Source: Micromonospora sp. NBC_01813 (GTDB taxonomy: Bacteria; Actinomycetota; Actinomycetes; Mycobacteriales; Micromonosporaceae). From it: a stretch of 64,000 nt of DNA. Positions 15,979 through 23,885 of the stretch are shown here, in pieces. Each line of letters begins with the position of its first letter. The first letter of the stretch is position 1. The DNA is taken from assembly GCF_035917335.1 (NCBI RefSeq), contig NZ_CP109067.1, positions 5,517,001-5,581,000 on the forward strand, given 5' to 3'. The position numbers and the translations under genes were made by a program. The notes under the pieces are model-generated. The model worked only from the letters and a program-made list of their open reading frames with translations, made no database searches and had not been told where the DNA came from.

Positions 15979-16097
15979 AGCTATTCTTGTGCGGTTGTGC
16001 AGGCGGCCAGGCGACATGGCCGGTCGTCCGCACCACGACGCTGGACCTCCTGCCACGGATGGACCGTGGCCGCCAGCCCATAGGAGGTGAGTCAGTC

Positions 16098-16388
16098 TTG
16101 CGTCACTACGAAATCATGGTCATCCTCGACTCGAGCCTCGAGGAGCGCACGGTCGCGCCCTCGCTCGACACGTACCTGAACGTCATCCGGACTGCCGGTG
16201 GTTCGGTCGAGAAGCTCGACGTCTGGGGCCGTCGGCGCCTTTCCTTCGAGATCAACAAGAAGACCGAAGGCATCTACGCCGTCATCGATCTGCAGGCTAC
16301 GCCGTCTGCCGTCGCGGAGCTGGACCGCCAGCTGCGACTCAACGAGTCGGTGCTGCGCACCAAGGTCATTCGGCCGGAAACGCGCTGA
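16098..16388 (+). CDS. rpsF: 30S ribosomal protein S6
   Basis: The 96-residue protein begins [10 protein letters not shown], the usual S6 start, and carries the conserved [19 protein letters not shown] segment. The start codon is TTG at 16098, eight bases after a strong AGGAGGTGA; no ATG or GTG in frame fits the ribosome binding site as well. S6 binds S18 on the small subunit platform. It begins the rpsF-ssb-rpsR-rplI operon. Confidence 0.97.
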
Positions 16389-16486
16389 CGCGTCGTATCC
16401 GGGACGCCCGACAGCCTCATCGATTCTGTCGCACGGCTCTGGCAGCCTGGGCACAGCAAATCGACTGAGCGCGCGAGGAGATGGTC

Positions 16487-17008
16487 ATGGCAGGAGATAC
16501 CACCATCACGGTCATCGGCAACCTGACCGATGACCCTGAGTTGCGTTTTACCCCATCCGGTGCGGCGGTGGCGAAGTTCCGGGTCGCCTCGACGCCCCGG
16601 TTCATGGACAAGGCCTCCGGCGAGTGGAAAGACGGCGAGGCGCTCTTCCTAGCCTGCACGGTGTGGCGTCAGGCGGCCGAACACGTCGCCGAGTCGCTCC
16701 AGCGGGGCGCCCGGGTGATCGTCTCGGGTCGGCTGCGGCAGCGGTCGTACGAGACCCGCGAGGGTGAGAAGCGCACCGTCATAGAGCTGGAAGTGGACGA
16801 GATCGGCCCGTCGCTGCGGTACGCCACGGCGAAGGTACAGAAGATGGCCCGCTCCGGCGGCAGTGGTGGCGGTGGCTTCGGTGGTTCCGGCGGCGGCGGT
16901 GGAGCCCCGGGCGGCGGCAACTTCGAAGACCCGTGGGCCACAGCTGCGCCGGCCGCTTCGTCTGCACGCGCGGGCGGCGGAAACTTCGAAGAGGAACCCC
17001 CGTTCTGA
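16487..17008 (+). CDS. ssb: Single-stranded DNA-binding protein
   Basis: A 173-residue protein with an N-terminal OB fold (about 1-110: [21 protein letters not shown]), a Gly-rich linker and the acidic tip EEEPPF that recruits repair and replication partners. The ATG at 16487 is preferred to the in-frame ATG at 16481 because GAGGAG ends at 16480, directly against the earlier codon. The start of rpsR follows within 42 bases. Confidence 0.96.
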
Positions 17009-17049
17009 TGGCTACCAACGCCCGCGATCGCAAACCAGGAGCACGGTCA

Positions 17050-17289
17050 ATGGCCAAGGCTGCGGCACTTCGCAAGCCGAAGAAGAAGGTGAACCCGCTA
17101 GACAAGGACGGGATCACCTATATCGATTACAAGGACACCGCGCTGCTGCGCAAGTTCATCTCCGACCGCGGCAAGATCCGCGCGCGGCGGGTGACCGGAG
17201 TGACCTCCCAGCAGCAGCGGCAGATCGCCCGCGCGGTCAAGAACGCCCGCGAGATGGCGCTCCTGCCGTACACCACTACGGCTCGCTGA
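17050..17289 (+). CDS. rpsR: 30S ribosomal protein S18
   Basis: The 79-residue protein has the S18 segments [22 protein letters not shown] and [21 protein letters not shown]. The start ATG at 17050 follows AGGAG by eight bases and gives the usual [13 protein letters not shown] beginning. An in-frame ATG at 17008 that overlaps the ssb stop would add 14 basic residues and is less likely. It lacks the Cys residues of zinc-binding S18 paralogues. Confidence 0.96.
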
Positions 17290-17303
17290 GCGGAGGCACC
17301 CAA

Positions 17304-17753
17304 ATGAAGATCATCCTTACTCAGGAGGTGTCTGGGCTCGGCTCCCCCGGGGACGTTCTCGAGGTAAAGGACGGCTACGGCCGTAACTACCTGCTGCCCC
17401 AGGGGTTCGCGATCACCTGGACAAAGGGCGCCGAGAAGCAGGTCAGCTCGATCAAGCGGGCCCGTTCCGCACGGGAGATCCGCGACCTCGGTCACGCCAA
17501 CGAGGTCAAGGGTCAGCTTGAGCACCTCAAGGTCACGTTGACCGCCCGGGCCGGCGAAGGTGGCCGGCTGTTCGGCTCGGTGACCCCGTCCGAGGTCGTC
17601 GACGCCGTCCGGACCGCTGGAGGTCCGGCCCTGGACCGCCGTCGGCTCGAGTTGCCCGGCCACATCAAGTCGGTCGGCACCTACCCGGTGAAGGTCAAGC
17701 TGCACCCGGACGTCACCGCGAAGTTCGACCTCAGCGTGCTTCAGGCCAAGTAA
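17304..17753 (+). CDS. rplI: 50S ribosomal protein L9
   Basis: A 149-residue protein with the L9 N-terminal signature GLGSPGDVLEVKDGYGRNYLLPQG, a long connecting helix and a C-terminal rRNA-binding domain. GGAGG lies upstream of the ATG. It is the last gene of the rpsF-ssb-rpsR-rplI operon and is followed by a strong hairpin. Confidence 0.97.
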   Translation: MKIILTQEVSGLGSPGDVLEVKDGYGRNYLLPQGFAITWTKGAEKQVSSIKRARSAREIRDLGHANEVKGQLEHLKVTLTARAGEGGRLFGSVTPSEVVDAVRTAGGPALDRRRLELPGHIKSVGTYPVKVKLHPDVTAKFDLSVLQAK

Positions 17754-21277: not shown

Positions 21278-21394
21278 TTGTCCACCGGGTGTGGACAGAG
21301 TTGTCGCAGCTCAGCAGTGCTGCCTCTGGAACTGGCGTGAGTTATCCACAGGCTGTGCACAACCTTGTGCACAGCCTGTGGCCCGCTATCCACA
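21278..21394. promoter_or_regulatory. DnaA-box cluster upstream of dnaB
   Basis: The region contains TTGTCCACC (21278-21286), its inverted partner TGTGGACAG (21290-21298), a perfect TTATCCACA (21342-21350) and CTATCCACA (21386-21394). Between the last two is a perfect 17-base inverted repeat with a CC spacer (21346-21381, arm CCACAGGCTGTGCACAA), which itself carries two TTGTGCACA-type near-boxes. The stretch 21173-21596 has no other supported gene. DnaA binding here could regulate dnaB. Confidence 0.7.
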
Positions 21395-21596
21395 GCTTGT
21401 CCCGAGGTTCATCAACAGGCCCGTTTGGGGCTGCCGCCCGGAGTCCGTATCGTTTCCCGGAGCCCTCCCGCACAGATGCGACGCCCCCGGTCGCCGACGC
21501 CTGCGGCGTGGCAGCCGGCGAGACGCCGACGAACAGCAGACGATGTCGTACCCGAGCAGTTCACTAGCGGGTGGTGACGTAGCGAAGGGGGCCCGG

Positions 21597-23885
21597 ATGT
21601 CCATCACGGATGATCTGCAGGCCGACCCCCGGCCGCCGCGACCCGCTGGCCCACCCAAGCCCCCGGCCCAACCACCCGGACCGCCGACCGGCGGCGGCCA
21701 GTTCGACCGCACTCCCCCACAGGACATCGCCGCCGAGCAGTGCGTGCTCGGTGGGATGCTGCTGTCCAAGGACGCGATCGCCGACGTCGTCGAGATCCTC
21801 AAGTCGCACGACTTCTACCGCCCGATCCACGCGACGATCTTCGACATCGTGCTCGACCTCTATGGCCGGGGTGAGCCGGCCGACGCGATCACCGTCTCCG
21901 CCGCGCTCGCCGACTCGGGCGACCTCGGCCGGGTCGGCGGCGCCCCGTACCTGCACACCCTGATCGCCAGCGTGCCGACCGCGGCGAACGCGTCGTACTA
22001 CGCCCGCATCGTGGCCGAGCGCGCGGTGCTGCGTCGACTCGTCAACGCCGGCACCAAGATCGTTCAGCTGGGCTACGGATCCGCGGCCGGTGGCGGCCGG
22101 GACATCGACGACGTCGTCGACCTGGCCCAGCAAGCGATCTACGACGTCACCGAGCGGCGGGTGAGTGAGGACTTTGCCGTCCTCGCCGACATGCTGCAGC
22201 CGACACTCGACGAAATCGAGGCGGTGGGCGCCCAGGGCGGCGTCATGACCGGGGTGCCGACCGGGTTCACCGACCTCGACCGGCTGCTCAACGGTCTGCA
22301 CCCCGGGCAGCTGATCATCGTCGCCGGACGGCCCGGTCTGGGCAAGGCGCTGGCGCTGGACACCCCGCTGCCCACTCCGGCCGGCTGGACGACCATGGGC
22401 GAAGTCGCCATCGGCGACCAGCTGCTGGGCGCGGACGGACGGCCGACGACCGTCGTCGGCACCTCCGGCATCCTCCTCGGCGGCCGGTCGTACCAGGTGG
22501 AGTTCTCCGACGACTCGACGATCGTCGCCGACGCCGACCACCTGTGGCAGGTGACCCGCCAACCGGTGGCGATGGCCCTGGCCGGTGCCGGGCCCTCCGC
22601 CGCGGCCGCCGGCAACTGGACCGATCCGACCGCCGGCGCACCGGCCGAGGTGCTCACCACCGAGCAGATCGTCGAGGTGCTCGGCACCGGCGGCGAGCCC
22701 AGCGTCGTGGTCACCAACTGCCGCCCGCTGGCGCTGCCCGACCGCGACGACCTGCCGGTCCCGCCGTACGAGATGGGGGTCGAGCTCGCCACCGGCGACC
22801 AGGCCCTCGACGGCGACGACGATGACCGGCGAATCCCGGCGGCCTACCTGCGTGGTTCCGAGCAGCAGCGTCGGGCGTTGCTGGCCGGGCTTCTCGACAG
22901 CGCCGGTACGTCGCGGGTGGGCGGGCTCGTCGAGTACCGCGCCACCTCCCGCATGCTGGCCGGCACGGTCCGGGAGCTGGTGGCGAGCCTGGGTTACCAC
23001 TGCACGATCTCGGCCGCGACCGTCCAGGGCCGGATGACCGCTCCGCCCACGGTGTACACCGTGGCGATCCAGGCCGGCCCCGGGCAGCAGCAGCGGTACG
23101 TCACCGCGGTCCGACCGGTGCGCAGCGTCCCGGTGCGCTGCGTGACGGTGGACAACGCCGACCACCTCTTCCTGGCCGGTCGGTCGATGACCCCGACGCA
23201 CAACTCCACCGCGTCGATGGACTTCGCCCGTAACGCGGCGATCCGGGCCGGCTGCGCCAGTGCGATCTTCTCGCTGGAAATGAGCAAGGTGGAGATCGTC
23301 ATGCGGCTGCTGTCGGCCGAGGCGAAGGTGCCGCTGCACGTGCTGCGCTCGGGTCAGCTCTCCGACGACGACTGGACGAAGCTCGCCCGACGGATGGGCG
23401 AGATCAGCGAGGCCCCGCTCTTCGTCGACGACACGCCCAACATGAACCTGATGGAGATCCGGGCGAAGGCTCGGCGGTTGCGCCAACGGCACGACCTGAA
23501 GCTGATCGTGGTGGACTACATGCAGCTGATGAGTTCGCCGAAGCGGACCGAGAGCCGTCAGCAGGAGGTCGCTGAGCTGTCCCGAGGGCTCAAGCTGCTG
23601 GCCAAGGAGGTCGAGTGCCCGGTCATCGCGGTCAGCCAGCTGAACCGTGGTCCGGAGCAACGCACCGACAAACGACCGCAACTGTCCGACCTGCGTGAGT
23701 CGGGATCGATCGAGCAGGACGCCGATGTGGTGATCCTGCTGCACCGGGACGACTACTACGACAAGGAGTCACCCCGGGCCGGGGAGGCGGACTTCATCGT
23801 CGCGAAGCACCGTAACGGTCCGACCGACACGGTGACCGTCGCGGCGCAACTCCACCTCTCCCGGTTCGTCGACATGGCGATCTGA
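21597..23885 (+). CDS. dnaB: Replicative DNA helicase DnaB with an in-frame intein
   Basis: The precursor has 762 residues; removing the intein (residues 251-536) leaves a 476-residue helicase, the normal size. The N-terminal domain (AAEQCVLGGMLLSKDAI) follows a Pro-rich tail. The Walker A motif GRPGLGK ends at residue 250 and its following Ser-Thr resumes at 537. The RecA-like part then has SLEMSK, the Walker B segment LIVVDYMQLM and the DLRESGSIEQDADV region. The ATG at 21597 follows AAGGGGG; the upstream open frame runs through the DnaA boxes and is not coding. DnaB unwinds DNA at the fork. Without splicing, the P-loop is broken and the helicase should be inactive. Confidence 0.96.
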   Translation: MSITDDLQADPRPPRPAGPPKPPAQPPGPPTGGGQFDRTPPQDIAAEQCVLGGMLLSKDAIADVVEILKSHDFYRPIHATIFDIVLDLYGRGEPADAITVSAALADSGDLGRVGGAPYLHTLIASVPTAANASYYARIVAERAVLRRLVNAGTKIVQLGYGSAAGGGRDIDDVVDLAQQAIYDVTERRVSEDFAVLADMLQPTLDEIEAVGAQGGVMTGVPTGFTDLDRLLNGLHPGQLIIVAGRPGLGKALALDTPLPTPAGWTTMGEVAIGDQLLGADGRPTTVVGTSGILLGGRSYQVEFSDDSTIVADADHLWQVTRQPVAMALAGAGPSAAAAGNWTDPTAGAPAEVLTTEQIVEVLGTGGEPSVVVTNCRPLALPDRDDLPVPPYEMGVELATGDQALDGDDDDRRIPAAYLRGSEQQRRALLAGLLDSAGTSRVGGLVEYRATSRMLAGTVRELVASLGYHCTISAATVQGRMTAPPTVYTVAIQAGPGQQQRYVTAVRPVRSVPVRCVTVDNADHLFLAGRSMTPTHNSTASMDFARNAAIRAGCASAIFSLEMSKVEIVMRLLSAEAKVPLHVLRSGQLSDDDWTKLARRMGEISEAPLFVDDTPNMNLMEIRAKARRLRQRHDLKLIVVDYMQLMSSPKRTESRQQEVAELSRGLKLLAKEVECPVIAVSQLNRGPEQRTDKRPQLSDLRESGSIEQDADVVILLHRDDYYDKESPRAGEADFIVAKHRNGPTDTVTVAAQLHLSRFVDMAI
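22347..23204 (+). other. Class 3 DnaB intein (286 residues) with decayed endonuclease
   Basis: The element starts with Ala (GCG at 22347), not Cys or Ser, and ends PTHN before extein Ser537. The features of class 3 inteins are present: Trp in block B (ADHLW, intein residue 67), Cys in block F (PVRCVTVDN, residue 265) and Thr in block G (PTHN, residue 284), with the final His-Asn at 285-286. In this class the block F Cys is the first nucleophile. The middle keeps one LAGLIDADG-like motif (LLAGLLDSAG, about residues 177-186) and no obvious second one, so the homing endonuclease is probably inactive. Confidence 0.9.

Follow-up and report, generated by a model that had tools for sequence, protein, structure and literature searches.

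The dnaB gene of Micromonospora sp. NBC_01813, which lies within a 64-kb stretch of the chromosome (positions 5,517,001 to 5,581,000 of contig NZ_CP109067.1; hereafter the window), is interrupted in its Walker A motif by an intein that carries serine at residue 48, a position where the cellular inteins sampled at this site have near-invariant cysteine. We consider it very probable that this is a class 3 cis-splicing intein that has become fixed in chromosomal dnaB across a genus of the Micromonosporaceae, no longer homes, and splices with Ser48 and without a Cys48 disulfide. The class 3 type, the insertion site and the decay of the endonuclease are ordinary and already known; the noteworthy part is the natural Ser48, which runs counter to published mutagenesis unless its sequence surroundings make up for the change.

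The DnaB precursor comprises 762 residues, encoded from an ATG at 21597, a start that was our choice (the longer, mechanically called open reading frame begins at 21291), to a stop codon ending at 23885. Its features, all on the + strand, are as follows:

21597 to 22346: DnaB N-extein, 250 residues, ending in GRPGLGK, with a match to the Pfam DnaB N-domain.
22347 to 23204: class 3 intein, 286 residues, between the Walker A Lys and Ser.
22347 to 22565: N-terminal splicing domain, residues 1-73, with Ala1, a DxxH motif, His65 (22539-22541) and Trp67 (22545-22547).
22488 to 22490: codon 48, TCG (Ser), where Cys48 is near-invariant by alignment and residue census.
22773 to 22799: remnant of endonuclease block C, MGVELATGD (GAWLGDGH, for example, in relatives), by alignment and pattern census.
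22878 to 22910: block E, LLAGLLDSAGT, in which the second Asp has been substituted (several relatives read LLAGLLDTDGT), by alignment and pattern census.
23094 to 23204: C-terminal splicing domain, residues 250-286, with Cys265 (23139-23141), Thr284 (23196-23198) and His285-Asn286.
23205 to 23885: DnaB C-extein, 226 residues plus stop, whose first residue, Ser+1, is the Walker A Ser.

The intein is an in-frame insert of 286 codons with the flanks GRPGLGK and STASMDFARN. Both boundaries could be fixed because GRPGLGK-ST was read uninterrupted in all ten DnaBs without an intein that were fetched from relatives, which bears out the insertion within Walker A claimed by a sequence-only reading of the window. 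The exteins matched the Pfam families DnaB and DnaB_C, and within the insert only LAGLIDADG_3 was detected, below threshold (18.2 bits vs. a cut-off of 22.5). Since the insert breaks the P-loop, the ATPase would depend on splicing.

Ala1, Trp67, Cys265, Thr284, the final His285-Asn286 and Ser as the +1 residue were each verified, and Cys265 corresponds exactly to precursor residue 515 (counted from the ATG at 21597), as the sequence-only reading had put it; its estimate of about 476 residues for the spliced product also agreed with the 476 residues of DnaB without the insert. Residue 1 is thus not Cys, Ser or Thr, and the set that defines class 3 (Trp B:12, Cys F:4, Thr G:5) is present as W67, C265 and T284, which align with W67, C118 and T137 of the DnaB intein of Mycobacterium smegmatis, Msm DnaBi1 (numbering of PMC6195587). 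The block B His (H65), the C-terminal Asn (N286) and a nucleophile at +1 (Ser) are also in place, and the insert has the HINT fold expected of a class 3 intein. A sequence search of the PDB returned Msm DnaBi1 together with DnaB1 of Mycobacterium chimaera (Mch DnaB1), with E values of 2.2e-34 to 1.1e-33, far beyond chance. In an intein tree built on 111 columns, with a bootstrap that had not settled, class 1 rows separated from class 3 at 100/100, these rows being 9 of 22 extracted inteins from DnaB site a and representing one class 1 lineage. The residue set, the PDB match and the tree together uphold the class 3 identity, and the intein did not fall among the class 1 inteins.

Ser48 aligns without gaps with Cys48 of Msm DnaBi1. 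We took a census of residue 48 over all fetched loci found by profile, dropping rows with a gap at 48 or 67 and counting identical rows once; sites were assigned by the flank motif RPxxGK and not by a DnaB domain search. Among 267 distinct cellular N-domains at this site, 262 had Cys48 and five had Ser48, and Cys48 was present in all 22 cellular class 3 N-domains with other flanks. The five Ser48 sequences represent six species, all belonging to the genus of the window, and the seventh species (G002) has Cys48. The 69 distinct class 3 N-domains from viral contigs comprised 55 with Cys, six with Thr, five with Ala and three with Val; the four distinct phage records comprised three with Cys48 and one with Thr48. 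The Bexan terminase intein has Thr48, and Val occupied the aligned column in all nine of the site-a inteins of class 1 from which the tree was built. A published count of class 3 inteins stands at 1701 (PMC7891396). The GTDB set holds the best 80 of 547 relatives and favours sequences resembling that of the window intein. Genomes with a match numbered 138 of 354 in the family, 169 of 397 in the order and 19 of 396 in the phylum, and were read through the fetched loci and 160 fetched stretches; the order-wide sample consisted of 30 returned loci and 60 further stretches from the 169 genomes. The C-domain was located for 315 of 317 N-domain rows, and among GTDB, family and phage loci it was missing only from L254. 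As sampled, Cys48 is therefore near-invariant in the cellular family at the RPxxGK site, with the lineage of the window as the sole cellular exception.

Further natural replacements of Cys48 by Thr, Ala or Val were seen in viral contigs (L125-L127, L135, L141, L145, L153-L155, L165, L166, L174, L192, L194-L196, L201, L202) and in a phage (L335), all of them at flanks other than RPxxGK.

In Msm DnaBi1, peroxide leads to a Cys48-Cys118 disulfide accompanied by halted splicing, and substitution of Cys48 with Ala, Ser, Thr, Met, Glu, Asp or His abolished splicing in every case (PMC6195587). The authors term Cys48 non-conserved, a label that our census argues against, and they describe the way in which it influences splicing as unclear. 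We found no prior report of a Ser48 DnaB intein or of Cys48 conservation in the open-access literature searched. With Ser48, the window intein lacks the partner to which the catalytic Cys of DnaBi1 is joined by a disulfide; it is filed as class 3, not as the redox type of DnaBi1. The residues preceding position 48 have changed too: RPC was found at 46-48 in 245 of the 267 cellular N-domains, the sister intein of G002 reads STC, and all six Ser48 species read GRS. The fact that G002 keeps Cys48 and already has STC suggests that Arg-Pro was altered before Ser48 arose, a change that may have been permissive.

The six Ser48 inteins formed one clade (100/95) in the intein tree, with the Cys48 intein of G002 as sister within the genus clade (100/99). 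The same arrangement was recovered from the DNA of the DnaB exteins, where the six grouped at 84/83, short of a star, and the genus at 100/99. A single Cys-to-Ser change followed by vertical descent accounts for this arrangement.

The sole LAGLIDADG-like motif, LLAGLLDSAGT at residues 178-188, aligns as the second motif (block E) with Ala in place of the Asp of DTDG, and of the first motif (block C) only the decayed sequence MGVELATGD remains. The decay proposed from a single remaining motif was therefore confirmed, and the acidic residues in both motifs that mark an active LAGLIDADG homing endonuclease are missing from the aligned sequence. As judged by our own patterns, none of the seven inteins of the genus had an acidic residue in either motif and 90 of 129 family inteins kept both, this set of 129 being defined by an N-flank ending in GK, so that it may include other P-loop proteins. 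By the same patterns, both acidic positions were also lost in 35 of 79 GTDB, 10 of 129 family and 3 of 72 viral inteins; endonuclease decay, on these sequences, is not special to the genus.

Selection was estimated as the ratio of non-synonymous to synonymous substitution rates (dN/dS) by a counting method with Jukes-Cantor correction, pooled over all 15 pairwise comparisons among the six Ser48 species without a significance test. Values were 0.144 and 0.152 for the N- and C-terminal splicing halves, 0.565 for the linker and 0.429 for the endonuclease remnant; the exteins had 0.053 and 0.020. The splicing halves are conserved, and the middle of the intein is relaxed yet not free.

The genome of NBC_01813 is a single 7.63-Mb contig with a completeness of 99.97%. 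A second dnaB that might act as a backup was sought with the C-extein as query, and across the whole genome the only match at E <= 0.001 was the window copy. Upstream of dnaB lies the following cluster:

15987 to 17753, + strand: rpsF-ssb-rpsR-rplI, with Pfam matches to Ribosomal_S6, SSB, Ribosomal_S18 and the N and C domains of Ribosomal_L9.

On account of this neighbourhood and the single C-extein match, the window gene is taken to be that of the chromosomal replicative helicase. The intein was present at the DnaB P-loop site in 7 of 7 sampled species of the genus.

Other stretches of the precursor gave weaker matches in the same genome, namely N-domain-like (E 6.5e-33 and 4.1e-11) and to the P-loop region (E 1.8e-4). 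In this and sister genomes, N-domain-like loci (L035, at G000:C1:4714327-4714800, and L034, L036 and L037) matched DnaB residues ~10-176 at 42-44%; such matches may partly reflect proline-rich similarity. A genome of the same family (G016) has two dnaB-like genes (G016:C1:4281622-4284045 and 8279419-8280753), one with a class 3 intein and the other a 459-residue frame without an intein, the C-part of which is 84% identical to that of the window; in G016, splicing may be dispensable. Nearly all of the window dnaB, including the intein, is spanned by an antisense open frame of 726 residues (21564-23744, - strand), likely a by-product of the 71% G+C content. Scans of the 64-kb window with Rfam (gathering threshold) and for tRNAs gave no match.

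By analogy with homologues in which class 3 chemistry is established (PMC5222942, PMC7664689, PMC7891396), Cys265 would attack the bond between Lys250, the last N-extein residue, and Ala1, the N-extein would be transferred to Ser+1, Asn286 would cyclise and an acyl shift would then rebuild the GK-ST peptide bond. The helicase P-loop would exist only after splicing. We infer that the window intein splices because its gene was found in one copy, its catalytic residues are intact and its splicing halves are constrained; splicing would persist with Ser48, perhaps by virtue of the earlier change in the neighbouring Arg-Pro. Loss of homing is suggested by endonuclease motifs devoid of their acidic positions, and the element is probably inherited along with the gene. 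A disulfide of the M. smegmatis type between Cys48 and the catalytic Cys would be impossible, so that this route of oxidative inhibition would be absent. Zinc inhibition through the catalytic Cys, as reported in PMC7360933, might still operate.

Several points weigh against this proposal. The Cys48Ser substitution abolished splicing in Msm DnaBi1 (PMC6195587), and splicing of the Ser48 intein is a prediction. Further, RPC is also missing from 16 distinct sequences outside the genus that retain Cys48, and compensation by the Arg-Pro change would be a correlation on a single branch, along which columns 38, 43 and 253 also changed in the six Ser48 inteins; columns 39, 40 and 69 are altered in these six and already in the sister G002. 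Thr, Ala or Val takes the place of Cys48 in 14 of the 69 distinct viral-contig N-domains, so that Cys48 may be a packing residue and not a selected switch. Another cysteine (C219 or C125) could act as an alternative redox bond partner.

The strongest of the other explanations, to which we assign a little less than an even chance and which is compatible with a spliced Ser48 intein, holds that Cys48 is structural everywhere and not regulatory, Ser48 being a neutral repacking of the core with no redox change that matters to the cell. Cys48 is usual at other class 3 sites as well (22 of 22 cellular, 55 of 69 viral-contig and 3 of 4 distinct phage sequences), the hosts of which need not share a reason for pausing replication. 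In line with this explanation, the aligned column holds Val in the nine site-a inteins of class 1 that were used, and the class 3 AceL NrdHF intein splices when its only N-half Cys, C81 at another position, is replaced (PMC7891396). This contrasts with Msm DnaBi1, in which both the Cys48-Cys118 disulfide and the inhibition by peroxide were demonstrated (PMC6195587). The opposite extension, in which near-universal Cys48 in class 3 DnaB inteins is partly kept as an oxidation pause and the genus of the window is the sole sampled cellular lineage to have dismantled it, through a permissive Arg-Pro change that freed the helicase from oxidative control, appears rather unlikely to us.

Relocation of the redox switch to another cysteine, either C125 or C219, the latter lying within the endonuclease remnant, is improbable. 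All six Ser48 inteins and their Cys48 sister have Cys219, and four of the six, along with the sister, have Cys125; however, a cysteine is seen at the C219 column in several Cys48 relatives as well, so no replacement need be assumed. Still less probable is a decaying intein, in which Ser48 marks lost splicing efficiency and the gene, spliced poorly or not at all, is on its way out or tolerated. The loss of splicing in the Ser48 variant of Msm DnaBi1 (PMC6195587) and the endonuclease motifs already gone would fit such decay, but the 99.97% complete genome has a single dnaB C-extein match, the exteins are under strong constraint and the splicing halves under constraint, and the precursor frame is free of internal stop codons in all six Ser48 species.

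Recent acquisition from a phage, a bearing that the sequence-only reading had drawn from known phage examples, is hardly credible and was rejected for the window copy: class 3-like matches are plentiful in phages (410 of 50,697 records) and a shared origin has been proposed for the DnaB-b inteins of mycobacteria and the TerL inteins of phages (PMC5050341), yet the best place in all 410 records was below 60% identity, with the best-ranked at 37% among the 40 rows listed, the intein occurs in 7 of 7 sampled genus species, and the intein and extein trees both unite these seven. The nearest relative was thus not a phage intein within the collections searched. A plasmid search with the 75-residue N-part gave 28 records; of the 15 listed, six were dnaB rows, all of them mycobacterial and 56-67% identical. 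A closer precedent is offered by the DnaB of M. smegmatis and M. leprae, with an intein of the same class at the same site (PMC6195587).

Whether inteins are stress sensors or passengers is an open question in which Msm DnaBi1 is a main case, and its redox claim rests on Cys48, a residue of which every laboratory substitution abolished splicing (PMC6195587). In six species Cys48 has been replaced naturally by Ser, the window genome shows one dnaB, and a Cys48 sister is available for comparison; the question is therefore testable with matched proteins of one family, the Micromonosporaceae.

The sister intein of G002 (L013) shares the genus, the site and the loss of the endonuclease motifs with the window intein, but it keeps Cys48 (as STC), is 340 residues long and is followed in the same frame by a second intein, of class 1. 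This 1406-residue DnaB frame (L013/L033, G002:C1:690973-694755) thus carries two inteins, the class 3 element at the P-loop and a 444-residue class 1 element at site a (Cys1, before SIEQDA). Msm DnaBi1 (PDB 6bs8, 6own) and Mch DnaB1 (6rix, 6riy) likewise are class 3 inteins of DnaB, DnaBi1 at the P-loop site b, and have Ala1, DxxH, His65 and Trp67 at residue numbers identical to those of the window intein; their chains of 139 and 145 residues lack an endonuclease, whereas the window intein has 286 residues with a dead endonuclease remnant. The M. leprae DnaB intein, a class 3 mini-intein homologous to DnaBi1, also has His65 and Trp67 (PMC5222942, PMC8557812, PMC6195587); unlike the window intein, it has 145 residues, with Cys48, Cys81 and Cys110 besides the catalytic Cys124 (PMC8557812). 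AceL NrdHF (6zgq), of the same class, differs in being naturally split, in its host protein and in its dispensable N-half Cys81 (PMC7891396). At residue 48 itself, Msm DnaBi1 and Mch DnaB1 have Cys, in contrast with the Ser of the window intein.
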